DNA of 64,000 bases, from NCBI GenBank assembly GCA_002151545.1, contig CP021237.1, positions 1,302,001 through 1,366,000 on the forward strand. Reading direction: 5' to 3'. Source of the DNA: Sphingobacteriaceae bacterium GW460-11-11-14-LB5 (lineage in GTDB: Bacteria; Bacteroidota; Bacteroidia; Sphingobacteriales; Sphingobacteriaceae). Numbering within the stretch: position 1 is the stretch's first letter; each line of letters begins with the position of its first letter. The notes beneath the pieces are model-generated. The model was not told the origin of the DNA. It ran no database searches and saw only the letters and a list, made by a program, of their open reading frames with translations. Of the stretch, positions 949-29,636 are shown piece after piece. The translations under genes and the position numbers were made by a program.

Positions 949-1379
949 TTATTTTGAAATTGTAATTATTGTTTTTATGAATTATTTAATGCCGTAGTTT
1001 TTGTTGATCAAATTTCACAGTTAGACCTATGCAAAATATTAAGATTTTATTTTTGATGGGATCCAGATAGTTCCCGTTGTCTAAATTGTATTTGCAGGTC
1101 TTTAAAAGCGAATGTTTTAAGGTATGGGCTTTGGCTTTATGTTTTTATCAGATTGTTTCGCTCCTGGTGATCAGAAGGCAATTAATATAACTGAAATGCA
1201 TCTTTCGGCTTATCATGGCGTAGTTTCACTCCTCGTTACTCCCGATATGTGGCTCCATGAAAGAAGCATTGGTTACATATTGATGTGGCAACGTTTTATT
1301 GTTAACTTTTCTTTAGCAAAAATTGATTATAAAAGCCCGATTCTTATTACGAATCGGGCTTTACCTTATTTAATCTTTT
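949..1379. other. Intergenic region between sulfatase and astacin genes
   Basis: About 430 bases upstream of the sulfatase and downstream of the protease gene. Short open frames here lack any recognisable protein. Apart from the terminator hairpin at 1332-1362 I see nothing definite. Confidence 0.5.
1332..1362 (-). terminator. Hairpin terminator of the astacin gene
   Basis: Perfect 12-bp stem AAAGCCCGATTC / GAATCGGGCTTT with a 7-base loop, 17 bases past the stop codon of the minus-strand protease gene. The minus-strand side continues into a T-rich stretch. Confidence 0.8.
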
Positions 1380-2669
1380 TTAAAATGTACTAAATTTGAA
1401 TTTTTGATTGTTGGCACCACCATAACCCCAAAGGCCAGGCAGGGTTCCGTTTGCGGTTGCACTACCCGGAATATCAATATTTTTGGATGGTACATTGCGT
1501 GGAGAAATGATATAATAACCACCCTCAACCGGGAAGATATTAAACTGCTGAGAGGTTGTACCTGTGTTTGTTCTAATTTCAAGTTTAGTACCATTCGCGA
1601 TACCACCACCCACTACGGTAAGTACCTTTCCTGGTGCATTTAACGGCGATAATATATAATAACCACTGGCATTTTTGGTCACATTCCACCTTCCGTTACT
1701 GGTGTTTACATCTGTCCATAAAATGACCTGCGTACCATCTGCCGTGTAATTCCCGGATACGTTCAGCACCTTGGTAATATCCAATGCTGTAGAAATTTCA
1801 TAATTAGTATTTGCAGGTAAGCCAACATATGTAAAACCGGTATACATGTGGTTGATGCCTGCAATATCTGCAGGGCTCATGTTTGGTGAAGGAAAGCAGG
1901 TCTCATAACGAGATCCATCTAATTTCGTTATCTTTTGGGGACTTCCGATTGGATCTGCGGCGTACATCAGAATTGATTCGATATCTAATGGAGTACCAAT
2001 AGTTGTATAACTTGTTGCCGAAACCTTATTATAGTTGTATGCACCACTTGGATCAATGTTGTCATAATTCACAATGATATAATCATCTCGGTCTGGGCGG
2101 CACATTTCATGATTTGCGCCCAATGAATGGAATATTTCGTGGATAATGATGCCGATAGTATTATAATTTACCAAATTCACGGTCTGTGCCCCACCGATCA
2201 TTCCTATTGGCGAAGTATTACCAGTGGACTTCATGAAATTAATGTAATTGGCCTGAGTAGTTCTTTGCACAAATGTTACCGGAGAAACCCTGCTAATATA
2301 TGCCATCGCCTTTAGAGAAGCAGCTGTATCGGCACCCAGACCCGATAAGTTATAATAAACTATACCACCTGGCCAGCGCTTAGCTAAAGCATTTATTACC
2401 AGTGCCCGCTCTGAGGTAGATACGTTTTTGTTGCTGTTAATTTTTATTAGATTAAACTGTTCTTTACTAAGTGTGATATCATCGGCGAGATAATATACTC
2501 CGTTGTCTTCTTTGATCTGAATGTTATTGCCGTCGAAATTAAAGGTATGCATTTTTGCAGATCTGTTTGCATCAACCACTTCGTTAGTCACGGCATTTTG
2601 CTTTTTACAGCTTAGGGCTGAAACAGACAAGAGTGCTGCCATAAAAAAGTTTAAATAGTTTTTTTTCAT
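1380..2669 (-). CDS. Astacin-like (M12A) zinc metallopeptidase lipoprotein with C-terminal ricin-type lectin-like domain
   Basis: 429 residues. An N-terminal lipobox (SALSC, Cys21) predicts a lipoprotein. Residues about 90-280 form the peptidase: the zinc site is HEIFHSLGANHEMCRPDRD (His177, Glu178, His181, His187), the extended astacin motif HExxHxxGxxHExxRxDR, and a Met-turn is visible as ILMY near residue 235. Residues about 290-429 hold repeated segments of the type YYILSPLNAPGKVL and YYIISPRNVPSKNI, typical of a ricin B-like beta-trefoil that binds carbohydrate. Known family role: endopeptidase, here probably surface-exposed and glycan-anchored. The N-terminal about 70 residues could act as a propeptide. 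A single-gene unit with its own terminator. Family assignment is firm, the lectin subtype less so. Confidence 0.93.
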   Translation of the reverse strand: MKKNYLNFFMAALLSVSALSCKKQNAVTNEVVDANRSAKMHTFNFDGNNIQIKEDNGVYYLADDITLSKEQFNLIKINSNKNVSTSERALVINALAKRWPGGIVYYNLSGLGADTAASLKAMAYISRVSPVTFVQRTTQANYINFMKSTGNTSPIGMIGGAQTVNLVNYNTIGIIIHEIFHSLGANHEMCRPDRDDYIIVNYDNIDPSGAYNYNKVSATSYTTIGTPLDIESILMYAADPIGSPQKITKLDGSRYETCFPSPNMSPADIAGINHMYTGFTYVGLPANTNYEISTALDITKVLNVSGNYTADGTQVILWTDVNTSNGRWNVTKNASGYYILSPLNAPGKVLTVVGGGIANGTKLEIRTNTGTTSQQFNIFPVEGGYYIISPRNVPSKNIDIPGSATANGTLPGLWGYGGANNQKFKFSTF

Positions 2670-16849: not shown

Positions 16850-16873
16850 ATCAGATTTCCAATAAAAATTTTG

Positions 16874-16903
16874 AAAGCAGTTCTGAAAAGGACTGCTTTT
16901 TTG
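16874..16903 (+). terminator. Terminator after the ABC-F gene
   Basis: AAAGCAGTTC / GGACTGCTTT stem with a loop of about 7 bases, followed by a T run. Confidence 0.8.
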
Positions 16904-17063
16904 TTTGAAGCGGATTTTTGAGTTTGTCAGTATATACCAGATTACCAGGTCAACTCACCAGCTTTTTCATTATAGTATTGGCAATTCTGTATTTTTTTAG
17001 GCCATTCTTTTTGCAAAATCCTTAATGTATCATGCTGATTATTTAATATTTATAATAAATCTA

Positions 17064-17084
17064 CTATATCCATAGATAATATAG
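17064..17084. promoter_or_regulatory. Candidate operator CTATAT-N9-ATATAG upstream of the sulfatase operon
   Basis: A 6-bp inverted repeat with a 9-base spacer that contains TCCATAGATA, itself nearly symmetric. It ends ten bases before the -7 element at 17094, so it would cover the -33 region. I do not know the regulator. Confidence 0.4.
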
Positions 17085-17093
17085 ATATATTTA

Positions 17094-17101
17094 TATATTT
17101 G
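17094..17101 (+). promoter_or_regulatory. -7 promoter element TATATTTG of the sulfatase operon
   Basis: Perfect TAnnTTTG match. It lies 26 bases before the start codon of the cysteine-rich leader ORF and 192 bases before the formylglycine-generating enzyme, so the leader ORF would be the first thing translated. Confidence 0.6.
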
Positions 17102-17126
17102 CACTGTCAATGTTACACATAACGAT

Positions 17127-17240
17127 ATGAACCATCTTTACATTAACAAATCTACTCGACCTGATTTTAAGTTGAATGTTGTTTTAAGCCATGCTGAAAC
17201 CTGTTGTAGAATAGATGCAGATTGTTGTATGTGCAGCTAA
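17127..17240 (+). CDS. 37-codon cysteine-rich leader ORF, putative attenuator peptide
   Basis: ATG 17127 to TAA 17238-17240. The peptide begins MNHLYINKSTRPDFKLNVVL and ends HAETCCRIDADCCMCS. Five of its last 13 residues are Cys (positions 25, 26, 32, 33, 35), all near the stop codon, as amino-acid codons are placed in transcription or translation attenuator peptides. It sits directly after a TATATTTG promoter element and 52 bases before the start of a formylglycine-generating enzyme in a sulfatase operon. Cysteine-rich upstream ORFs that sense cysteine are known before sulfur genes in Actinobacteria; I know of no described Bacteroidota example. The TGTTGT codon pairs could pair weakly (5 bp) with ACAAC at 17240-17244 after the stop. 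Coding status and role are inferred from composition and position. Confidence 0.6.
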   Translation: MNHLYINKSTRPDFKLNVVLSHAETCCRIDADCCMCS

Positions 17241-17292
17241 CAACCAAGCGCTCGTCACAAACATTATTTAGTATATCCTTATTATCCCTTTT

Positions 17293-18438
17293 ATGAATCT
17301 CCTTTTCAGGAAACTGGTAATCAGCTCTTTGGTTATTTTTCTGGCATGCCCTTTTTTGAACTTCAGGCAGGCATACCCGGTGGTTAAATCTCATCCGGTG
17401 GCTGATGCTGTTTTATCTTGCTGTTCAGCTAAGCTTCCAAACAGGTATGGAGTGAAGTTTACAACATTAAACCAGTCTAAAGAAAATACACCCGGTGTTG
17501 CGGTAAAGACCATCAGTGGAATGGTTTGGATAAAGGGCGGAAGTTATTTAATGGGGGGCGACGATAAGCAGGCACAGGCCGATGAATATCCGAAGCACCG
17601 GGTAAGTGTTAAAGGTTTTTATATTGATGTGACCGAAGTAACCAATGCCCAGTTTAAAAAGTTCGTCGATGCAACACATTATAAAACTACTGCTGAGCGC
17701 ACGCCCGACTGGGAGGTGATCAAAAAACAGCTTCCGCCTAATACGCCTAAACCTGACCCCAGTTTACTCGTAAAAGCTTCGCTGGTTTTTAAGCCAAGTG
17801 TCAATAAGGTCGATTTAAATGATTATTCTCAATGGTGGGTATGGACCAAAAATGCGGATTGGAAACATCCCCATGGGCCAAAGAGCGATATTAAAAATAA
17901 AGATAATTACCCTGTGGTCCACATCTCTTTTGAAGATGCAATAGCTTATTGTAAATGGGCGGGAAAACGTTTACCAACCGAAGCGGAATGGGAGTGGGCA
18001 GCGAGGGGTGGACTCGAAAATAAAATCTATCCCTGGGGTAATGAAGCCCTCAACGCAGGCAAAGTGAAAGCAAACACCTGGGAAGGAGAATTTCCTAATC
18101 AAAACGCGAAGAAAGATGGCTACTATTATGCCGCACCGGTAAAGTCTTATCAGCCCAATAACTATGGGCTGTACGATATGGCGGGTAATGTATGGGAGTG
18201 GTGCTCAGATTATTACGATAGCCGGTATTATGCAAGTGCCAAAGTTTTCGATAACCCCAGAGGTCCGGCTAAATCTTTTGATCCTGACGATACTTTTGCC
18301 ATAAAAAGATTGATCAGAGGTGGTTCCTTTTTATGTAATGCCAGCTATTGCTCCGGATATCGGGTTGCAAGGCGAATGAAAACATCAGAAGACAGCAGTC
18401 TGGAGCACCTTGGCTTCAGATGTGTAAAAGATAAATAA
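17293..18438 (+). CDS. Secreted formylglycine-generating enzyme (sulfatase-modifying factor family)
   Basis: 381 residues. An N-terminal hydrophobic segment (residues about 7-22) predicts export. The FGE-sulfatase domain spans residues about 75-380: GMVWIKGGSYLMGGDD, FYIDVTEVTNAQFKKFVDAT, PVVHISFEDAIAYCKWAGKR, LPTEAEWEWAARGG, GLYDMAGNVWEWCSDYY and GFRC at the end. GGSFLCNASYCSGYRVARR carries both catalytic cysteines (Cys348 and Cys353) at the spacing of true FGE enzymes, which bind copper and oxidise the sulfatase Cys to formylglycine; many FGE-like proteins lack them. So it is probably an active maturase for the sulfatase at 23306. Its start follows the Cys-rich leader ORF by 52 bases, and it precedes SusC by 161 bases. 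An export signal implies periplasmic maturation, unusual since maturation is often cytoplasmic. Confidence 0.93.
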   Translation: MNLLFRKLVISSLVIFLACPFLNFRQAYPVVKSHPVADAVLSCCSAKLPNRYGVKFTTLNQSKENTPGVAVKTISGMVWIKGGSYLMGGDDKQAQADEYPKHRVSVKGFYIDVTEVTNAQFKKFVDATHYKTTAERTPDWEVIKKQLPPNTPKPDPSLLVKASLVFKPSVNKVDLNDYSQWWVWTKNADWKHPHGPKSDIKNKDNYPVVHISFEDAIAYCKWAGKRLPTEAEWEWAARGGLENKIYPWGNEALNAGKVKANTWEGEFPNQNAKKDGYYYAAPVKSYQPNNYGLYDMAGNVWEWCSDYYDSRYYASAKVFDNPRGPAKSFDPDDTFAIKRLIRGGSFLCNASYCSGYRVARRMKTSEDSSLEHLGFRCVKDK

Positions 18439-18599: not shown

Positions 18600-21500
18600 A
18601 TGCAAAATTTCTATGAAGTACGTGCCCGGCGCACGCTTACTTCAAAATTTCCTACACAATACTTTAGGAAGCTATTCTCTGTTTCTTTCATCGGAAGAAA
18701 AAAAATAACCTTCAGCTTCCTGATTTTATTCTTGCTGCTTGTACTTTCAAAAAATGGGCATGCGCAAACCACTCCGCTTATTAATTCAACTTTAACCGGA
18801 ACGGTTAGAGATGCCAGAACGGGTGAAACCTTACCAGGCGTAAATGTGGGCATAAATGGCACTACCCATACGGCACTAACAGATAATAATGGTATTTTTC
18901 GTTTCGTAACTGGACAAAAATTCCCCTATACGCTTACCATTAGTTTTGTAGGCTATAAAACATTGCAGGTAGTAGCCAACGGCTCGCCGCTTGAAGTAAA
19001 ACTTGAGGAACAGGTAAATACACTGAACAATGTAGTGGTAGTGGGTTACGGAACGCAGAAAAAAAGCGACTTTACAGGTTCACTTTCCTCCGTTCCCACT
19101 GAACTGAAAGGCGTTCCGGTGGCCTCACCAGACCGGCTTATCCAGGGTGCAATTTCTGGTGCCCAGGTTACCCAATCCAGCGGACAGCCTGGTGGTGGCG
19201 TTTCGATCCGGGTGCGTGGTGGAACATCTATTAATGCGGGGAACGAACCCCTTTATGTAATTGATGGTTTCCCGGTTTACAATGGCGATGCATCAGTTGA
19301 TGCCGGTATCACCAACGGACCGGCCATCAATCCACTTTCTGCAATTAATCCAGCCGATATCGAATCGATAGATGTACTTAAGGATGCTTCTGCAACTGCA
19401 ATTTACGGCTCTCGTGGTGCAAATGGTGTAATTCTGATTACCACTAAAAGAGGCAGCAAAAACAGTTTTTCCATTAACTACAGCGGTTATTACGGTACAC
19501 AAAAAGTGAGTAAGAATATAGGTGTATTGAATGCCAGGGAATGGGGAGCGCTAAAAAACGATGCCCTTACCGATGCGGGTAAAGCGCCCTTTTATACCCA
19601 GGCGCAGTTAGACCAGCTTGGAGAAGGAACCGACTGGCAAAGCGAGGCTTTCAGAACAGCACCCGTGCAGAATCACAGCCTTTCGATTTCGTCGGGCAAT
19701 GAAAAAACACGTTTATTACTTTCTGGAAATTACTTCAAACAAGAAGGGGTAATTTTAAATACAGGTTTTGACCGGTATTCGGCAAAGCTAAATATTGATC
19801 ATGAAGTAAACGCTAAATTCAAATTGGGGGCTTATCTGAACGGAAGTATAACCCATGCCGATGTGGCACCAAGCGGGATTGTGGCCAATATTCTTTCTAT
19901 GGTACCCGTTGTTCCGGTAAAAGATGCTAATGGGAATTTTACGGCAAACAGTAGTTTTGGGGCAACGGTTGCAAACCCGATAGCTACTTTAAGCTTGCAG
20001 ACCAACGAAACAAAAACCACCAGGTTTTTGGCCAACAGTTTTGGAGAATATACCATTATCGATGGATTAACAGCCAGGGTTTCTTTAGGTGCAGATATCA
20101 TCAATAACAAACAGAACAGATACCTGCCATCTGCACTTTACGAAAGTCTGCCAGGTGGAAATGCATCAATAGGCGCTTTATCAACATTAAACTGGCTAAA
20201 TGAAAATACAATTAACTACAAAAAAACAGTTAATGGAAAACATAGCTTCGATATCCTTTTAGGTAATACACAACAAAAATCGGTTACCGAGGTTTTTACC
20301 GCAGGTACTTCAAATTTTGTTAGCGATGCATTTAAATACAATAATCTGGCTTCCGGAACGGTGCTGGCAACCCCAACATCATTAAAAACAGAGTGGGCAC
20401 TGCAATCCTTCCTTGCCCGTATCAATTATGCCTACGATAATAAATACCTTTTAACCTTAACGGCCCGCGCCGATGGATCTTCAAGGTTCGGTATCAATAA
20501 CAAATGGGGAACTTTCCCTTCGGCAGCAATTGCCTGGAATGCCTCGAATGAGGGATTTCTTCAAGGCATAAAAGCCATTAGTTCGTTGAAATTCCGTTTT
20601 AGTGCGGGTGTAACCGGTAACCAGGAGATCGATCCATACCGATCACTTTCGCGCTTGTCGAGTTATCAATACACTTTTGCCAATACCCTGGTTAATGGTT
20701 TAGCCATAGCCAGTTTTGCAAACCCTGATTTAACATGGGAAAAAACAGCTCAATATAACTTTGGTATCGACCTGGAACTGTTTTCGGGCAGAATCCAGTT
20801 AACAACTGATGTGTATTATAAAAGAACTTCAGATTTATTGCTTGAAGTTCCGGTGCCCTATTCTTCAAGTTTGACCAGTGCATTTCAGAATTTAGGTGTA
20901 GTCAGGAACAAAGGGGTAGAGTTAGGACTGAAAACCATAAACTTCCAGGGCGATTTTAACTGGACAACCAACCTGATATTTTCTGCAAACAGAAATAAAA
21001 TTATTACGCTTGGTGGCGCGCCTTATTTCTTTGTTACAGATCCGGCCAGTCCCACCACTTTACCAACCCAGATTATTAAAGTTGGCGAATCGGTCGGTGC
21101 ATTTTACATGTACGAAACTGATGGTGTAAATCCTGCTACGGGCTTACAAAAGTACAAAGACCTGAATGGTGATGGTGCGATAACGCAGGATGCCGATCGC
21201 AAGATTGTGGGTAGTTCTCAACCAAAATTTTTGGCAAGCATAACCAATACTTTTAGGTGCAAAAATTTCGATTTGTCGGTTTTTTTCAATGCCTCGTATG
21301 GGAACAAAATCTTCAACTGGACGCGCGCCAACCTGGAGTTAGGAACTGGTTATACCGGTGCTGTAGCGACATTACTTGACCGCTGGACACCGACCAACCG
21401 GAATACTGATGTACACAAAGCCATCGAAAACCCGGCAGTAACTATTTCTGACCGCTTTGTGGAGGATGGCGCTTTCATCAGACTTAAAAATGTTTCTATT

Positions 21501-21713
21501 GGTTATAGCATTCCAGGCCGCTTACTCTCCAAATTGAAATTAAGTGCACTAAGGGTGTATGTCTCAGGTTCTAACCTTTACACGTGGACGAAGTATACTG
21601 GCTACGATCCGGAGGTAAGCACCAATGGACAGAACTCGATAAGCACGGGGATGGATAGGGCAGCTTATCCGAATGCAAAATCAATTCAGGGTGGCATCAG
21701 CCTAACGCTTTAA
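18600..21713 (+). CDS. SusC/RagA-family TonB-dependent transporter of the sulfatase operon
   Basis: 1037 residues. About 35 basic N-terminal residues precede a long hydrophobic segment (KITFSFLILFLLLVLSKNGHAQ), so the true start may be internal. A carboxypeptidase-D-like domain follows (STLTGTVRDARTGETLPGVNV), then the plug with VVVVGYGTQKKSDFTGS and SIDVLKDASATAIYGSRGA. The barrel ends in GGISLTL. The 161-base gap after the formylglycine enzyme contains only a weak GGGA...TCCC hairpin near 18495-18520 and no strong promoter, so cotranscription is plausible. With SusD at 21741 and the sulfatase at 23306 it likely imports a sulfate ester. Its ligand is inferred from the neighbours only. Confidence 0.96.
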   Translation: MQNFYEVRARRTLTSKFPTQYFRKLFSVSFIGRKKITFSFLILFLLLVLSKNGHAQTTPLINSTLTGTVRDARTGETLPGVNVGINGTTHTALTDNNGIFRFVTGQKFPYTLTISFVGYKTLQVVANGSPLEVKLEEQVNTLNNVVVVGYGTQKKSDFTGSLSSVPTELKGVPVASPDRLIQGAISGAQVTQSSGQPGGGVSIRVRGGTSINAGNEPLYVIDGFPVYNGDASVDAGITNGPAINPLSAINPADIESIDVLKDASATAIYGSRGANGVILITTKRGSKNSFSINYSGYYGTQKVSKNIGVLNAREWGALKNDALTDAGKAPFYTQAQLDQLGEGTDWQSEAFRTAPVQNHSLSISSGNEKTRLLLSGNYFKQEGVILNTGFDRYSAKLNIDHEVNAKFKLGAYLNGSITHADVAPSGIVANILSMVPVVPVKDANGNFTANSSFGATVANPIATLSLQTNETKTTRFLANSFGEYTIIDGLTARVSLGADIINNKQNRYLPSALYESLPGGNASIGALSTLNWLNENTINYKKTVNGKHSFDILLGNTQQKSVTEVFTAGTSNFVSDAFKYNNLASGTVLATPTSLKTEWALQSFLARINYAYDNKYLLTLTARADGSSRFGINNKWGTFPSAAIAWNASNEGFLQGIKAISSLKFRFSAGVTGNQEIDPYRSLSRLSSYQYTFANTLVNGLAIASFANPDLTWEKTAQYNFGIDLELFSGRIQLTTDVYYKRTSDLLLEVPVPYSSSLTSAFQNLGVVRNKGVELGLKTINFQGDFNWTTNLIFSANRNKIITLGGAPYFFVTDPASPTTLPTQIIKVGESVGAFYMYETDGVNPATGLQKYKDLNGDGAITQDADRKIVGSSQPKFLASITNTFRCKNFDLSVFFNASYGNKIFNWTRANLELGTGYTGAVATLLDRWTPTNRNTDVHKAIENPAVTISDRFVEDGAFIRLKNVSIGYSIPGRLLSKLKLSALRVYVSGSNLYTWTKYTGYDPEVSTNGQNSISTGMDRAAYPNAKSIQGGISLTL

Positions 21714-21740: not shown

Positions 21741-23261
21741 ATGAAAATAAAATATTTACTGCTGGCAATTGCTGTTGCCAGTCTTTCAGCCTGCGTAAAA
21801 CTGGATGAAAACCCAAAATCATTCATCTCGCCAGAGCAATTTTACAAAACAGCTGGCGATGCTGTTTCTGCTGTTAATGCCATATATTATCCAATGGTTG
21901 ACAATAGCACAGGTGCTCAGCCGATATATAACCGGCTGTTTTATACAGGATTGGATTTCCTGACGGATGATCTGGATGCTGGTCCGGGCTCTCCCAATGC
22001 AGAAGTAAGGGCACTGGCCAAGTTAACCCATGCTTCTACAAATTTACGCATCCAACAAATCTGGACGGAACATTACGAGGGCATTAATAAAGCTAATATT
22101 GCCCTGGAAAGAATTCCTGCGATAGAAATGGATGGCAAACTTAAAAACCGCTTACTTGGTGAAGCCAAATTTTTGAGGGCCTTTTATTATTTCAATTTAG
22201 TCAGGCTTTATGGCGATGTTCCATTGCTGTTAAAAGACCAGACACAGTTGAGCATTGCTGAACTGCAGGTACCACGAACACCGAAAGAACAGGTTTATCT
22301 GCAGATTATCAATGATCTGGAAACCGCGGCCTCTTTATTCAAAGCGGGCTCAGGCGGTGAAGCAGGTCGTGCTACCGAAGGTGCTGCGGTGGCCTTGTTA
22401 TCCAAAGTGTATTTAACCAGAAGAGATTGGGCCAATGCCGTGAAATATGCCGAAGCCGTAATTACAGGCAGTTATGGTTACGCATTATTTGATGATTATG
22501 CACAGGTTTTTCTTCCGGCATATAAAAATGGAAAAGAGCACATTTTTTCTGCACAGATAAAAGGAAGTACAATCAGCACCGGTCATTTAATTACCTCAAG
22601 TGATATCCGCTCCGGTGTTCCCGGATTAAAAGGATCCTACGGAAATCAATTGGCTTTTTATACCGTTGGAAGCGATAATTTTTTCAGTCTGTACAAACTT
22701 TATTCGGGAAAGGATAAAAGAAAGCGTGTATCATTTGTCACTTATTATACCAGTCCGACAGATGGTAAAAAGTATGCCACGATCAATGCACCAGGGGATT
22801 CTGTTCCTTTCATCAATAAAAACTGGGACCCTAATTATGCCAGCACCGGAAACTCTGATGCCAATATGAACATCTTACGTTTTGCAGAAGTGATTTTGAT
22901 AGACGCTGAAGCTGAAAATGAACTTAACGGGCCAACAAGCAAAGCTTATACTTCAATTAACAAAATCAGGAAAAGGGCTGGCCTGGCCGATTTAACAACA
23001 GGATTAACCAAAGATCAGTTCAGGGATTCGGTTTATCTGGATCGCCGCCTCGAACTGGTAGGCGAATGCCACAGGTATTTCGATCTGATCCGTCAAACGG
23101 GAACCGAAGTTACAGGCGTTGGTCCTGAAGGGAAAGGGATTTTACTTAAAAACCTGAAGCTGGTTGGAAAAACGAATGTAGCTGCGCGACATTATTTATA
23201 TGCCATCCCACAGGGTGAAATTGATAGAAACCCAAAACTTACCCAAAACCCAGGCTGGTAA
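21741..23261 (+). CDS. SusD/RagB-family lipoprotein of the sulfatase operon
   Basis: 506 residues with lipobox SLSAC after the signal segment. SusD-like features: LLGEAKFLRAFYYFNLVRLYGDVPLL in the N-terminal TPR half, LRFAEVILIDAEAENELNG and RRLELVGECHRYFDLIRQTG in the second half, and the family ending YAIPQGEIDRNPKLTQNPGW. It begins 27 bases after the SusC stop and ends 44 bases before the sulfatase start, as expected for one operon. It binds substrate on the cell surface and hands it to the SusC barrel. Confidence 0.97.
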   Translation: MKIKYLLLAIAVASLSACVKLDENPKSFISPEQFYKTAGDAVSAVNAIYYPMVDNSTGAQPIYNRLFYTGLDFLTDDLDAGPGSPNAEVRALAKLTHASTNLRIQQIWTEHYEGINKANIALERIPAIEMDGKLKNRLLGEAKFLRAFYYFNLVRLYGDVPLLLKDQTQLSIAELQVPRTPKEQVYLQIINDLETAASLFKAGSGGEAGRATEGAAVALLSKVYLTRRDWANAVKYAEAVITGSYGYALFDDYAQVFLPAYKNGKEHIFSAQIKGSTISTGHLITSSDIRSGVPGLKGSYGNQLAFYTVGSDNFFSLYKLYSGKDKRKRVSFVTYYTSPTDGKKYATINAPGDSVPFINKNWDPNYASTGNSDANMNILRFAEVILIDAEAENELNGPTSKAYTSINKIRKRAGLADLTTGLTKDQFRDSVYLDRRLELVGECHRYFDLIRQTGTEVTGVGPEGKGILLKNLKLVGKTNVAARHYLYAIPQGEIDRNPKLTQNPGW

Positions 23262-23305
23262 GAAACAAATTTTTAGAAAACCATAAACTTTAAATGATAC
23301 GTATT

Positions 23306-25621
23306 ATGAAAAGGATACATTATAAGATTGCGGGAGCAGCTATTTTAATATCATCGATATTTCAAGCGGCATCTGCACAAACATCAAACCCATTAACATC
23401 CGATCAGGGTTTTAAAGGCAAAATTGGCAGAACAGCAGCCGAATCTCAGGAATATTTTCCCGAAAAGAAAAAAGCACCTGCTGGTGCACCAAATGTAATT
23501 GTATTTTTAATTGATGATGCCGGTTATGGCACATCGAGTGCTTTTGGAGGTTTAATGCAAACACCGGTGTTGGATAGTTTGGCCAATAATGGGTTACGTT
23601 ATACTAATTTCCACTCTACAGGAGTTTGTTCCCCAACACGTGCTGCGCTGCTCACTGGCCGTAACCACCATTCGGTACATATGGGTACCTTAAATTACAG
23701 TTCGAGTGGTTTCCCGGGTTATGATGCAATTATGCCAGCCGATAAGGGAACAATTGCCGAAGTGCTGCACGAAAATAACTATAGCACCTTTGCTGTAGGA
23801 AAATATCATGTTGCGCCGATCAATGAAATTACAGCAATTGGCCCCTACGATAGATGGGCTGTTGGCCGGGGTTTCGATCACTTTTATGGATTTCAGCTGG
23901 GGCATACCGATCAGTATCATCCAAATCTTTACGAAGACACTAAAGTTGTTGATCCGGAACCAAATGGGAAACACCTGACCACGCTATTAGCTGACAAAGC
24001 GATCAACTATATTTCTAATCAAAAATCCATTGCACATGATAAACCTTTCTTCCTCTATTTTGCAACCGGTGCAATTCATTCTCCGCATCAGGTAGATAAA
24101 AAATGGAGCGATTTGTATAAAGGCAAATTTGATAAAGGCTGGGATTGGTACAGAGAAGAAGTTTTTGCCCGTCAGAAAAAACTGGGAGTAATCCCTGCCA
24201 ATGCGGTGCTGCCCGATCGCGATCCTACGGTTAAAGCCTGGAATAGCTTATCGCCAGAGCAAAAGAAAGTATATGCCCGTTTTATGGAAATTTATGCGGG
24301 TTTCTTAACGCATGCGGATTACGAGTTTGGCCGCATTGTTAACTATGTAAAAGAAATCGGACAGGCAGACAATACGGTGATCCTGGTGAGTATTGGCGAT
24401 AACGGATCAAGTCACAGCCCGGAGCATGGTAGTTTAAATGGTTATATCAGCTCACTGGATGAAGATAAACAAGTTGCAGCGTTATATAAAAACATTGATA
24501 AACTGGGTACAGAACACTCTTTTGAAGATGCACCCTCAGGCTGGACCCAGGCAACCAATACACCGTTCAGGTTATGGAAAGCAGACCCGAACAGTGAGGG
24601 CGGTACGCACCAGCCGCTTATTGTGTATTATCCGAATGGCCAGTTAAAAAAGGGCGATATCCGCGGTCAATACGGGCATGTAATTGATATTGCACCAACC
24701 ATATATGAGTTAACAGGAGCAAAGGTTCCTGAAGTTATTAAAGGAAGTGTACAGAAACCGATTGAAGGGACAAGTTTGGTTTATTCATTTAAAGATGCCA
24801 ATGCCGAAAACAGGCACAAAATTCAGTACTATGAGTTATTTGGAAAGCGGGCCATTGTGAAGGACGGCTGGAAAGCTTCTGTTTTTCATAAATCCGGAAG
24901 TGATTTTAATCAAGATGTATGGGAGCTTTATAACCTGAATGACGATTTTAACGAACGTATTAACCTAGCTGCAAAATACCCTGAAAAAGTAAAAGATTTA
25001 CAGGCACTTTTTGAGCAGGAGGCCATTAAGTATAATGTATTTCCATTAAATGATAATGCACTCGGCCACAGCGTCGGCGGAAGAGCCCGCAGTCCTTTTG
25101 GTCTTGATAAAAAGGTGGTGCTTTACCCGGGTATTGAGCAGTTTTTAACCCTTAGCGGACCACAGTTCCAGAACGATGCATTTTCAATTACTGCAGATGT
25201 TGATATCAAATCGGCAGGAGCACAAGGAGTTTTATTTGCTACCGGCTCTGAATTTGAAGGTTTAAGTTTATTTATTAAAGATGGCAAATTTGTAGTGGCA
25301 CATAACACAGGCAGCATTGTTAAGTATCTGGAATCGAATGTTCCGGTTTCAGTTGGCAAATCAAAACTGAAGTTCGAATTTAATTTCACTGCGCCGGCTC
25401 ACGAAAGTAAAGATAAAAATGCACCTGCAGGTACTGAGGCGATTTATATCAATGATAAAAAGGTAGGCGAGCGCAATGTTGTTGCTGCAGAAGGTAGAAT
25501 TGCAATATATAAAGATGGGATCGACGTAGGTGCAGACAGAAATTCGACTGTAACCGATCGTTACAAAGCACCCTTTAACTTTACGGGAAAGTTAAACAAC
25601 ATCACTATTGAATATAAATAA
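23306..25621 (+). CDS. Large Cys-type arylsulfatase-like sulfatase
   Basis: 771 residues from ATG 23306; another ATG at 23294 adds four residues, but the internal one gives a normal basic signal peptide (MKRIHYKIAGAAILISS, cleavage after AASAQ). FLIDDAGYG holds the Asp pair of the calcium site. TGVCSPTRAALLTGR is the perfect C-S-P-T-R sulfatase signature (Cys108 to become formylglycine). GKYHV, the GAIHSPHQ segment and SIGDNGSS supply the remaining metal and sulfate ligands. The length and the C-terminal beta-sandwich-like extension (residues about 600-771) fit the large bacterial arylsulfatase type rather than the roughly 500-residue glycan exo-sulfatases. With FGE, SusC and SusD in the same operon, a role in sulfate release from an imported ester is likely. 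Confidence 0.95.
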   Translation: MKRIHYKIAGAAILISSIFQAASAQTSNPLTSDQGFKGKIGRTAAESQEYFPEKKKAPAGAPNVIVFLIDDAGYGTSSAFGGLMQTPVLDSLANNGLRYTNFHSTGVCSPTRAALLTGRNHHSVHMGTLNYSSSGFPGYDAIMPADKGTIAEVLHENNYSTFAVGKYHVAPINEITAIGPYDRWAVGRGFDHFYGFQLGHTDQYHPNLYEDTKVVDPEPNGKHLTTLLADKAINYISNQKSIAHDKPFFLYFATGAIHSPHQVDKKWSDLYKGKFDKGWDWYREEVFARQKKLGVIPANAVLPDRDPTVKAWNSLSPEQKKVYARFMEIYAGFLTHADYEFGRIVNYVKEIGQADNTVILVSIGDNGSSHSPEHGSLNGYISSLDEDKQVAALYKNIDKLGTEHSFEDAPSGWTQATNTPFRLWKADPNSEGGTHQPLIVYYPNGQLKKGDIRGQYGHVIDIAPTIYELTGAKVPEVIKGSVQKPIEGTSLVYSFKDANAENRHKIQYYELFGKRAIVKDGWKASVFHKSGSDFNQDVWELYNLNDDFNERINLAAKYPEKVKDLQALFEQEAIKYNVFPLNDNALGHSVGGRARSPFGLDKKVVLYPGIEQFLTLSGPQFQNDAFSITADVDIKSAGAQGVLFATGSEFEGLSLFIKDGKFVVAHNTGSIVKYLESNVPVSVGKSKLKFEFNFTAPAHESKDKNAPAGTEAIYINDKKVGERNVVAAEGRIAIYKDGIDVGADRNSTVTDRYKAPFNFTGKLNNITIEYK

Positions 25622-25631
25622 GACGATAAAT

Positions 25632-25668
25632 AACAGGCTGCCATCTTTTGGTAGCCTGTTTTGTTTTA
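25632..25668 (+). terminator. Terminator of the sulfatase operon
   Basis: AACAGGCTGCC / GGTAGCCTGTT (one G-U pair) with a 7-base loop, then TTTGTTTT. It ends the operon 11 bases past the sulfatase stop and rules out translation starting at 25661 for the next gene. Confidence 0.88.
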
Positions 25669-25693
25669 CTACAATTTCTCAAATCGATATCAA

Positions 25694-26958
25694 ATGAAAA
25701 TAATACTCAGAATTTTTATGCTCGCTGTTTTGGCAAAAAGCACATGGGCACAAGATAAAGCCGGTGATCCTATTTTTAATGGCAATAAATTGTTCGCCGA
25801 TGTAAAGCAATACGTTGACTTTGGGATTCACAGAACTGCGACAGATGGCGATAACCAAACATCGGCATGGCTGAAAAATAAACTGGATAAATTAGGGTAT
25901 AAAACCGAATACCTTTATTTTCCGGTGAAGCAGTATTTTTTGGAAAGCGCTTCACTACAAGTAAAAAATAAAGTATTAAATGTATTTCCGCTTTGGCCTG
26001 TTGCCCAGGCCAATGTGTCTTTAAATGCGGTTTTAGTTGATGCAGATAAGAACAAACAGTCAGTTTCGGGAAAAATTGCCATCATCAGATTAAAAAAAGA
26101 AGACCGTCAATACATTGACCGTTTAGAAAAACTCGATCGCTTTAATGATTTGATTGCCCGGCATGCCAGTGCTATAATTTTGATTGTGGATAATGAAGCA
26201 GGCCAAATAGCTGCTTTAAATACCCAACCAAATGCATCGTGGAAAATTCCTGTGGTCAGATTGCACCAAAAGATACCGCACAGTTAATCAGCGGTGCCAC
26301 AGCTTCCCTTCAGATTAAAGGCAGTTTAAAAGATGTACAGGCACGTAACGTAATCGCCAAAATTGGATCTGGCAAAAAAGAAGTCATTGTTTCTACTCCA
26401 ATTAGCGGCTGGTTTACCTGCGGTGGAGAGCGCGGACCTGGAATTGCAATTTTTAATGCCATCGCCGAATGGGTAAGCGTTACCAAACCACCGTATACCT
26501 TTGTTTTTATCGCAAATTCATCTCACGAACTGGAAGATCATAGGGGAACTCATGTATTTATTGATAAAAGGGCACCAAAACCAGAAAATGTCAGGCTGTG
26601 GGTGCATTTTGGTGCGAGTTTTGCCATAAACGCATATCAAAAAACAACTGACGGAATAAAGAAACTTGATGCTGTTGATCCTAAGAGGAGGGTTTATTAT
26701 AGCTCAAATATGGAGAATACAATCCATAAAGCCTTTGATAACAGACCGATCGCTCAGCTGAAGGATGTTGCCTTAGGAGAGCTTAGTGTAGCCAAAAAAT
26801 ACGGGTACGCTTCTTATTTCGGTTTTGTTGGGGCCGATTTTAATCCTTATTTTCATACCCCAGTTGATGATGAGACCGCAACATCGCCAAAAATATTAGA
26901 AGAAACGGCTTTACTGATCAGGAATGCAATTGAATTAGAATTGGCAAATCACTTGTAA
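25694..26958 (+). pseudogene. M28-like (PA-domain peptidase fold) secreted protein, frameshifted
   Basis: ATG 25694 starts a signal peptide (ends STWAQD). The frame stops at 26285-26287, but the downstream frame from about 26257 continues the same protein: WKIPVV joins QIAPKDTAQLISGATA if one base is added between 26256 and 26257. Joined, it is about 421 residues, with an M28-like fold: NQTSAWLKNKLDKLGYKTE, an inserted PA-like domain, SGWFTCGGERGPGIAIFNAI, FIANSSHELEDHRG and the terminal FHTPVDDETATSPKILEET. The His-x-Asp metal ligands of M28 peptidases (usually in an H-x-D pattern before the GADDN motif) are replaced (STPISG), so even a repaired protein may not be a metallopeptidase. Frameshift is seen; family is likely. 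Confidence 0.75.
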
Positions 26959-27437: not shown

Positions 27438-29636
27438 ATGAAGAAGCCCGTTTTTTTAGTTTTCTTATTTATACTCGGCTCAACTTTTTTTAGCCATACA
27501 AAAGCGCAATCCGTATTCCAAACCATATTACAAAGGGTTCATCAGGAGCAAATTGATGACGTAAAGGATATAAAAAGCCTGGACAAACGGGTGGAAGATA
27601 ATCTGGCAGGTTTAAATCTAAAGAGTGGAAAATGGGAATCTATAAATTATGCAGATTATAAACGCATCAAGCCAGGTTGGTTACCTGTATTGGAAAGGAT
27701 AAGGACCATGACATTAGCTTATTCATTTCCTAAAAGTAGTTATTATAAGAATAAACAGATTTTTGAAGCCATACATAAAAGCCTGAGTTATTTCATTAAT
27801 CATAAACCTTTGCCTTATTGCGATAATTGGTATCAGCAGGGTATTACGCGTCCACAAACTTTAGCTTTAAGCCTTGTCAATATGAGGTTTGGCGAGTCGC
27901 CCCTAGATGGTGAGTTGGAAAAAAATACGCTGGCTGTAATTTGCAAAGATACTTCCGTTACCAGTATCGGACGGAATAACCCTATGCACAGGTTTAATTT
28001 TGGAGCCAATAAAGCCCAGATTGCGATGGGCTGGATATTTATAAGTGCTTTGCTAGCGAATGAAAAAATGTTAGAAGTGGGGGTGAAAGAGGCTTACTTG
28101 CCCATTCAATACACCACTGGAGAAGGAATTCAATATGATCTTTCTTACGATATGCACTATGGGTATCTGTACAATGGTGGATATGGAGTGGAGTTTATGA
28201 CAAGTGTGGTTAAATCTGCTGCTTATACTTTTGGAACCAAGTATGCGCTGAAAGGTGAGAAACTGGATCTATTTCGAAAATTTATATTGGAATCAATATT
28301 TGGCGTTATCCGTGGGAAGTGGATGGATTGGAATGTGATGGGTAGGGGTATTTCGCGTATTGGTGCAATACAAAAAGACTACTCTTCATATCTCGAAAAG
28401 TTGGAGCAGATTGATCCACAGGGAAAGGAACAATATAGTGCTATTAGAAAAAGGATGAAAGGTGAAGAACCTGTTTTCTTCAAAGTGGAACCCTTCCACC
28501 GTCATTATTGGAATACTGATTATACGGTGCACACCCGGCCTTCATACTTGATGTCGATACATGCTGTTTCAAACAGAAAGTACTCACAAGAGATTGGCAA
28601 TCTGGAGAATCAGAAAGGATTTTGGGGTTCAGAAGGAACCATGAACCTTCAATTGAAAGGGAATGAATATTACAATATATTTCCACTATGGAATTGGACC
28701 AAACTACCTGGCACTACACTGCCAGATACTTTGCCTACCATTAAAGATAAGGCGCCAGGTGTAGGAGATAGGAGAGGAACACATTCCTTTTCAGGAGGAG
28801 TGTCTGATTCAAGCTACGGAGCTACCGCTTATGTAATGGATAATGATCTATATACCTCAGCAAAAAAATCCTGGTTTATGTTTGATGATGAAATTGTATG
28901 CTTAGGAGCAGGTATCAAGTCAACCCTGCCTTATCCGGTTGCCACTACTTTAAATCAGGTAATGCTTTCTGGAAATGGACTAACCATATGCGCTGGTAGT
29001 CGTGTTACCCGATATCAAAAAGGCATCAACCTAACTTTTAAAAATCAGGTAGAATGGGTATTGCATGATCATGTAGGATATGTGTTTCCTCAAGGGGGCA
29101 ATGCACATCTATCTGCTGAAAACAGGATTAGTGATTGGGCAGGGGTGAGTATGACTGGTGAAGAAGCTAATAAAAAGATAGAGCAGAAATCTGTTTTTCA
29201 GTTAAGCTTACAGCATGGTATTCGTCCTGAAAATGAGAAATACGCCTATATCCTAGTGCCGGCTATCAAAAATTCTATTGAAATGAAACATTACCTTGAA
29301 AGGAAAAATGTTACAATCAAGTTCAATAACGAAAAGCTCCAGGCGGTATATCATAATAAATTGAAGATATGGCAGATGGTATTTTATGCGGGAAATATGT
29401 CTTTTAAGGATGATGAAATTAATTTATCAACAGATATTCCATCAATTTTAATGCTTAAAAAAATAGAGAAAGGAAAATATCAACTTTATGTTGCAGATCC
29501 TTCCCATCTTTATGAAAAAATGAAGGTTAGCCTTAAGATAAGCGGGGGCGATACGCAGACGTTTGACTTAGATCTGCCGCTGAAGCAATATGCTGGTCAG
29601 ACTGTATCGATTGTTGTAAATTCCGAACATCTTTAA
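27438..29636 (+). CDS. Polysaccharide lyase family 8 (chondroitin/hyaluronan lyase type)
   Basis: 732 residues with a signal peptide (ends HTKAQ). The N-terminal alpha/alpha toroid is residues about 30-370 and the C-terminal beta-sandwich domains about 370-732. Catalytic residues match those of chondroitin AC lyase of Pedobacter heparinus: His240 and Tyr249 in MHYGYLYNGGYG (same nine-residue spacing as His225/Tyr234), Arg303 and Arg307 in GRGISR, and Glu399 in WGSEG. It cleaves uronic acid-containing glycans by beta-elimination. Chondroitin or hyaluronan is the most likely substrate class, but xanthan and alginate-like specificities exist in PL8. No SusCD is directly beside it. The sulfatase operon upstream could fit sulfated glycosaminoglycans, though it ends at its own terminator. 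Confidence 0.93.
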   Translation: MKKPVFLVFLFILGSTFFSHTKAQSVFQTILQRVHQEQIDDVKDIKSLDKRVEDNLAGLNLKSGKWESINYADYKRIKPGWLPVLERIRTMTLAYSFPKSSYYKNKQIFEAIHKSLSYFINHKPLPYCDNWYQQGITRPQTLALSLVNMRFGESPLDGELEKNTLAVICKDTSVTSIGRNNPMHRFNFGANKAQIAMGWIFISALLANEKMLEVGVKEAYLPIQYTTGEGIQYDLSYDMHYGYLYNGGYGVEFMTSVVKSAAYTFGTKYALKGEKLDLFRKFILESIFGVIRGKWMDWNVMGRGISRIGAIQKDYSSYLEKLEQIDPQGKEQYSAIRKRMKGEEPVFFKVEPFHRHYWNTDYTVHTRPSYLMSIHAVSNRKYSQEIGNLENQKGFWGSEGTMNLQLKGNEYYNIFPLWNWTKLPGTTLPDTLPTIKDKAPGVGDRRGTHSFSGGVSDSSYGATAYVMDNDLYTSAKKSWFMFDDEIVCLGAGIKSTLPYPVATTLNQVMLSGNGLTICAGSRVTRYQKGINLTFKNQVEWVLHDHVGYVFPQGGNAHLSAENRISDWAGVSMTGEEANKKIEQKSVFQLSLQHGIRPENEKYAYILVPAIKNSIEMKHYLERKNVTIKFNNEKLQAVYHNKLKIWQMVFYAGNMSFKDDEINLSTDIPSILMLKKIEKGKYQLYVADPSHLYEKMKVSLKISGGDTQTFDLDLPLKQYAGQTVSIVVNSEHL

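Follow-up and report, generated by a model that had tools for sequence, protein, structure and literature searches.

A cysteine-codon leader before a sulfatase operon of Sphingobacteriaceae and its putative place in an Rrf2-type sulfur regulon

Attenuators, cysteine leaders, and sulfur regulons described elsewhere

Attenuators of the his, trp, and phe type carry a run of codons for the sensed amino acid, mutually exclusive hairpins, and an intrinsic terminator. The leader addressed here shares with them a sensed-codon run in a short leader, but their exclusive hairpins and intrinsic terminator were not found. In the CymR-type Rrf2 sulfur regulons of Firmicutes, the Rrf2 gene stands beside sulfur-assimilation genes and an operator is present at sulfur genes. 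Our genomes likewise have an Rrf2-family gene beside sulfur-assimilation genes and an operator-like motif at sulfur genes, with binding being inferred here. We know of no leader peptides that serve CymR as a second tier of control.

Cysteine leaders were proposed in 2005 for Mycobacterium, Propionibacterium, and Bifidobacterium, without hairpins and with a suggested role for Rho (PMC1262725). Like the leaders described below, those candidates carry their Cys runs close to the stop codon, lack a conserved hairpin, and have a pyrimidine-rich gap; unlike them, they precede cys and cbs operons, and no shared operator was described there. According to Canestrari et al. (2020), as cited in two later papers (PMC13236596, PMC9094748), the leaderless polycysteine sORFs of mycobacteria are cysteine-responsive, and a later paper terms them translation attenuation. 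These sORFs resemble the present leader in being short Cys-codon ORFs before sulfur genes. They belong to another phylum, have no known sequence relation to this leader, and are leaderless (ATG at +1), whereas the promoter box of our locus predicts about 20 nt of 5' leader, the start being unmapped. The leaders described here further differ in having a shared operator and in their targets (glycan-sulfatase/TonB-receptor and PhyH genes), and their cysteine response is inferred.

In the same phylum as our locus, leader peptides were inferred in Flavobacterium psychrophilum, but before amino-acid biosynthesis operons, and no cysteine leader was found in the main text of that report (PMC9723704). 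Unspecified sORFs have been reported in B. thetaiotaomicron. The literature that we searched contained no cysteine leader of Bacteroidota, an absence that is no proof of novelty, and the Cys-run leaders of Flavobacteriaceae and Sphingobacteriaceae have apparently not been described so far.

The leader ORF and the operon behind it

The window, which is the whole stretch of 64,000 nucleotides analyzed, comprises bases 1302001-1366000 of a 6.18 Mb single-contig genome. From its sequence alone, the original prediction described a 37-codon ORF with five of its final 13 codons coding for Cys, 52 bases ahead of a gene for a formylglycine-generating enzyme (FGE) and behind a TATATTTG promoter element, and all of these features were borne out. 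The ORF (17127-17240, forward strand) encodes the 37-residue peptide MNHLYINKSTRPDFKLNVVLSHAETCCRIDADCCMCS. Its Cys cluster, CC-RIDAD-CC-M-C, occupies 17202-17234, with Cys codons at 17202-17207, 17223-17228, and 17232-17234 that are scattered and form no single run. The TATATTTG element, a Bacteroidota-type -7 box conserved in four loci, lies on the same strand at 17094-17101, 25 bases ahead of the ATG; we infer a transcription start near 17107, which would leave about 20 nt of leader 5' of the ATG.

The operon is separated from upstream transcription by a terminator-like site (16873-16900, forward strand) after the preceding ABC-ATPase gene (Pfam ABC_tran), and the same type of scan found no terminator in the 58 nt from the last Cys codon to the FGE start (17235-17292). 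The genes that follow, all on the forward strand, encode an FGE-like protein (17293-18438; PF03781, 3.1e-82), a SusC-type TonB-dependent receptor (18600-21713; PF07715 and PF13715), a SusD-type lipoprotein (21741-23261; PF07980), and a sulfatase (23294-25621; PF00884, 9e-56). The sulfatase carries CSPTRAALLTGR, a Cys-type signature that needs formylglycine. Several minor features were seen in and around these genes. Outside the Pfam domain, FGE proteins have in common a CC-x3-[LI]P-[NS]-R element (about residues 43-52 of the window protein; also in L159, 10756-11859), with CCSAKLPNR and CCESNIPSR as instances. Downstream of the sulfatase gene, two overlapping ORFs in different frames (25661-26287 and 26239-26958), with no Pfam domain above the cut-off, may be one frameshifted gene. 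A polysaccharide lyase family 8 gene (27438-29636) lies downstream of the operon and fits a sulfated-glycan locus.

A search of 145 genomes of the genus with the leader peptide gave three clear homologues, one with 75% identity (G092) and two with 56% (G031 and G087), each occupying the equivalent position ahead of this operon. All five Cys are invariant in the four genomes while the other positions drift, and the sole length difference is one whole codon. Two of the homologous loci are informative about what the leader serves: of the FGE gene, G031 and G087 have only a 116-aa remnant that retains both ends (L003 and L004, about 1093-1443, minus strand), although their leaders are intact and SusC genes are still found behind them. 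Judged by gene content, this suggests conservation of the leader for the sake of the whole operon rather than of FGE by itself. Weaker tblastn matches in the genus (L005-L030) showed no comparable leader when read, so homology of this particular leader is recognized in four genomes only. Nothing convincing came from a profile search with the leader family, one match (G721) having an internal stop and no start. The window peptide matched no NCBIfam family at E up to 10, and the leader region matched no curated Rfam family, with only sub-threshold chance matches.

A shared operator-like motif and poly-Cys leaders

Just upstream of the -7 box lies the motif CTACTATATCCATAGATA (17061-17078, forward strand), which is almost invariant across the four leader loci and is a candidate Rrf2 site. 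The original prediction had pointed to an inverted repeat over the -33 region; this repeat, CTATAT-N9-ATATAG (17064-17084), is present and overlaps the motif, but conservation falls on the 18-mer, which is offset from it. With three mismatches allowed, the motif has eight matches in the window's genome, and behind these stand, among others, a PhyH gene preceded by the mini-ORF MSNKTFVFYFPSVPNHSRMRMCCCCA, a tRNA-Cys/SAM-riboswitch transcript, and another SusC gene. A refined motif had about 89 matches in 40 genomes of the genus, compared with about 11 for its reversed control. It covers the -33 region in the window and sits next to the expected start point, behind TAnnTTTG, in the PhyH type; judged by position, both placements would suit a repressor.

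The genes near the motif have the make-up of a sulfur regulon: PAPS-reductase-family genes, cobA, Rrf2, sulfite/nitrite reductase, tRNA-Cys, and the SAM riboswitch. At one locus (L152), cysH- and cysD-like genes of the PAPS-reductase family and a GTPase gene read as cysN are followed by the motif and then by cobA. At another (L153), an Rrf2 regulator gene ends 19 nt before the motif, again with cobA after it, and its orthologue in the window's genome (78% identity; G000:C1:984025-984444) precedes a sulfite/nitrite reductase gene. An Rrf2-family gene thus adjoins sulfur genes in the same genome, as expected of an Rrf2/CymR sulfur regulon. Because the Rrf2 gene adjoins a motif site, a CymR-like Rrf2 repressor is the most likely binder of the motif, and CTACTAAATCTATAGATT would be its putative target; both are proposed without binding data.

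Some motif sites are accompanied by structured RNAs. One copy in the window's genome stands ahead of a tRNA-Cys(GCA) gene and, behind that, a SAM riboswitch (L033/L161; G000:C1 near 904448), and similar arrangements occur in several relatives. The motif also precedes a tRNA-like element with the anticodon loop CAU (Met-like; L032 1762-1831, G000:C1 near 2372507), which was found by Rfam and not called by ARAGORN. Flavo-1 RNA matches above the gathering score lie near two motif sites (L032 2194-2290 and L034 2157-2226), and their relation to the motif is unknown.

Many copies of the motif are followed by mini-ORFs that are rich in Cys, in runs of 3-9, and otherwise mostly unrelated, and the genes behind them include PhyH, TonB-receptor, FGE, and others. 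Within the genus, such leaders are represented by the sequences MRMCCCCA (PhyH), LECCCC and SNCCCCCRGFSRM (TonB receptor), SCNNFCCCC, MCNCCCR, KVCCCCRS, NYCCYC, CRMCNC, and GYCCCC. In G090, the leader of an FGE-SusC-SusD-two-sulfatase operon, the type also present in the window, is a different one that ends in MMMCCCCNE and is likewise rich in Cys. The PhyH leader of Flavobacterium johnsoniae has the ending MRMCCCCCCFR. The original prediction had proposed a search in Bacteroidota, upstream of sulfatase, FGE, and sulfur genes, for leaders that keep their Cys codons as their other positions drift, and this check came out positive. Four Cys in four codons were found downstream of the motif at 16 of 83 genus sites and in none of 732 stretches further downstream; the counts at the motif sites were 0 on the antisense strand, 0 upstream, and 0.01 on average in shuffles. 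Orthologous sites were taken separately here, so the independent events are fewer than 16.

These counts bear on whether the operator alone matters, with Rrf2-type repression doing the regulation and the leader having no regulatory role. Several motif sites, among them those at cobA and tRNA-Cys, do lack a leader. We nevertheless consider this reading very unlikely, for Cys runs stand behind the motif far more often than chance allows and recur in unrelated sequences before different genes.

Pattern scans of the genus and the phylum gave several times as many real as control matches, and about 100 distinct poly-Cys leaders lie behind the same motif. A scan of a collection of 84,980 species for the motif, an ATG, and three Cys codons returned 87 stretches, all from Flavobacteriaceae, Sphingobacteriaceae, or a Bacteroidetes MAG (Flavobacterium, other Flavobacteriaceae, Pedobacter, Mucilaginibacter, Nubsella, a Sphingobacteriaceae MAG, and the Bacteroidetes MAG). 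A looser scan of the phylum without the motif (TTTG-ATG-TGY3-TAA) was uninformative because other matches, Ala codons out of frame among them, dominated its output; the spread given here covers motif-bearing leaders only.

The Cys run lies inside an ATG-started ORF in 80 of the 80 loci read. In a test that did not assume the frame, applied to 66 leaders with an ATG at a fixed offset from the motif, the run was in frame with that ATG and stop-free in 65, at eight spacings that were all multiples of three, and the remaining leader has a later in-frame ATG. Orthologues differ within the runs at third positions only, and most runs reach to the final or penultimate codon of the leader. These leaders have what defines the Cys-codon class, namely clustered Cys near the end of a short ORF upstream of sulfur genes, and a frame and Cys codons that are kept while the rest drifts. 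Frame, third-position drift, and run placement are, on comparative evidence, marks of codon sensing and not of a small protein or a nucleotide repeat. That the repeated TGY stretch acts as an RNA or DNA motif is barely credible: many runs are indeed tandem TGY repeats, but the frame and the spacings, the variation confined to third positions, and the interrupted, scattered Cys patterns such as that of the window all speak against it. Conservation of the coding frame would also suit a small functional peptide, perhaps binding metals or thiols and co-expressed with the sulfur regulon without being a sensor. This, too, is improbable in the extreme, if a little less so than a nucleotide motif, since the peptides of different genes mostly have nothing but Cys in common, the run varies in length and sits at the very end, and its spacing to the next start is kept. 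We hold with high confidence that the ORFs are cysteine-codon leaders, with translation and cysteine response being inferred.

Spacing, RNA structure, and the proposed control step

The terminator scan was negative both behind the window leader and in 81 leaders. In folding, the window leader does not surpass shuffled versions of itself (z = +0.79), which leaves the pairing of TGTTGT with ACAAC suggested in the original prediction without support. Pairing between the Cys codons and the downstream start region was also considered and was rejected, since across 82 loci it did not exceed that with shuffled targets. Lacking an intrinsic terminator and alternative hairpins, the window leader is not a classical transcription attenuator. 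What is maintained is distance. Between the end of the Cys run and the start codon of the following gene there are usually about 50-70 nt, with 57-59 nt among the FGE leaders and medians of 56-69 nt for the PhyH and TonB-receptor groups. This holds for leaders that stop right behind the run as well as for those that stop 14-20 nt short of the gene or 43 nt into it. An exception is one Pedobacter receptor group, at about 170-200 nt, and the constancy is partly due to common descent. Because the spacing is kept wherever the leader stops, it points to the position of a stalled ribosome, and not to the leader stop, as what would matter.

We propose that 17127-17240 encodes a leader peptide that would sense charged Cys-tRNA, and hence cysteine, for the FGE-SusC-SusD-sulfatase operon, and that it is probably one of two tiers, beside an operator-like motif shared with sulfur-assimilation genes and presumed to be bound by a CymR-like Rrf2 repressor. 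When cysteine is scarce, the ribosome would stall within the Cys cluster, at about 58 nt from the start of FGE, and expression of the operon would rise; when cysteine is plentiful, the leader would be read through and expression would stay low. Since no terminator or sequestering hairpin was found, the effect may be on translation of the first gene, or act through mRNA protection, and not through an intrinsic terminator. The low state at plentiful cysteine remains without explanation, as no repressing RNA structure was found. The original prediction of a Cys-sensing leader stands in its main point, given the conserved Cys and the distinct Cys leaders, and is corrected in two respects: the leader is part of a regulon with an operator-like motif, probably for an Rrf2 repressor, and no hairpin or terminator was found.

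We give this whole explanation, a Cys-tRNA-sensing leader without a terminator in an Rrf2-type sulfur regulon, a probability of roughly 0.72. Comparison of genomes shows that the ORF is coding, that its Cys are conserved, and that the motif is shared, and it also shows the sulfur context, the spacing, and the absence of a terminator; the Cys-tRNA signal, direction of response, Rrf2 binding, and translational step are inferred without expression or ribosome data. Confidence in the direction, unmeasured as it is, is moderate and rests on targets that scavenge or assimilate sulfur and on leader peptides elsewhere that work in this way; confidence in the physical mechanism is low. The scattered Cys of the window leader, its having only four homologues, and the motif sites without a leader count against the explanation, as do the wider spacing in one Pedobacter receptor group and the lack of a repressing RNA structure.

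The main rival, which we regard as possible but unlikely, keeps the Cys sensing and makes Rho-dependent transcription termination the output, as in tna: a finished leader would leave a G-poor, pyrimidine-rich gap bare for Rho to act on, and a stalled ribosome would prevent this. G makes up 4.7% of the segment between the final Cys codon and the following start codon, compared with 11.5% for other upstream regions; C is almost four times as frequent as G, and the gap is less structured than its shuffles. The same idea was put forward for the actinobacterial Cys leaders (PMC1262725). However, 17 leader ORFs run 43 nt into the PhyH gene and six end 14-20 nt before the next gene, so that in these the gap would be translated just when Rho should act.

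With the Cys-tRNA-sensing leader as the preferred explanation, a broader proposal can be made tentatively, at somewhat less than even odds: that Flavobacteriaceae and Sphingobacteriaceae have a regulon in which an Rrf2-type operator is stacked with terminator- and hairpin-free poly-Cys leaders on scavenging genes, with the ribosome stalled at a roughly set distance of about 50-70 nt before a start codon, in bacteria mostly without Shine-Dalgarno sequences. If true, this would be a new way of attenuation. Cysteine-sensing leader peptides would be extended to a phylum without a described case in the searchable literature, with about a hundred distinct mini-ORFs revealed in the much-studied Flavobacterium, Pedobacter, and Mucilaginibacter, and the use of sulfated glycans would be linked to the demand for sulfur as well as to that for carbon. 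By inference, cells most likely switch on sulfur scavenging through such leaders when cysteine runs short. Bacteria of this group mostly lack Shine-Dalgarno sequences, and control by a stalled ribosome is open to a simple genetic test in them.

Two features of the poly-Cys leaders and their targets are recorded here as observations. In 46 of 77 distinct leaders (L162-L241), largely related PhyH leaders, the residue just ahead of the Cys run is Met, which could provide extra start codons or reflect methionine sensing. In two families (L155 9158-10811; Flavobacterium orthologues, L162 etc.), a PhyH oxygenase gene followed by a CDP-alcohol transferase gene stands under a poly-Cys leader, a pair that might, speculatively, remodel lipids in a way that spares sulfur.
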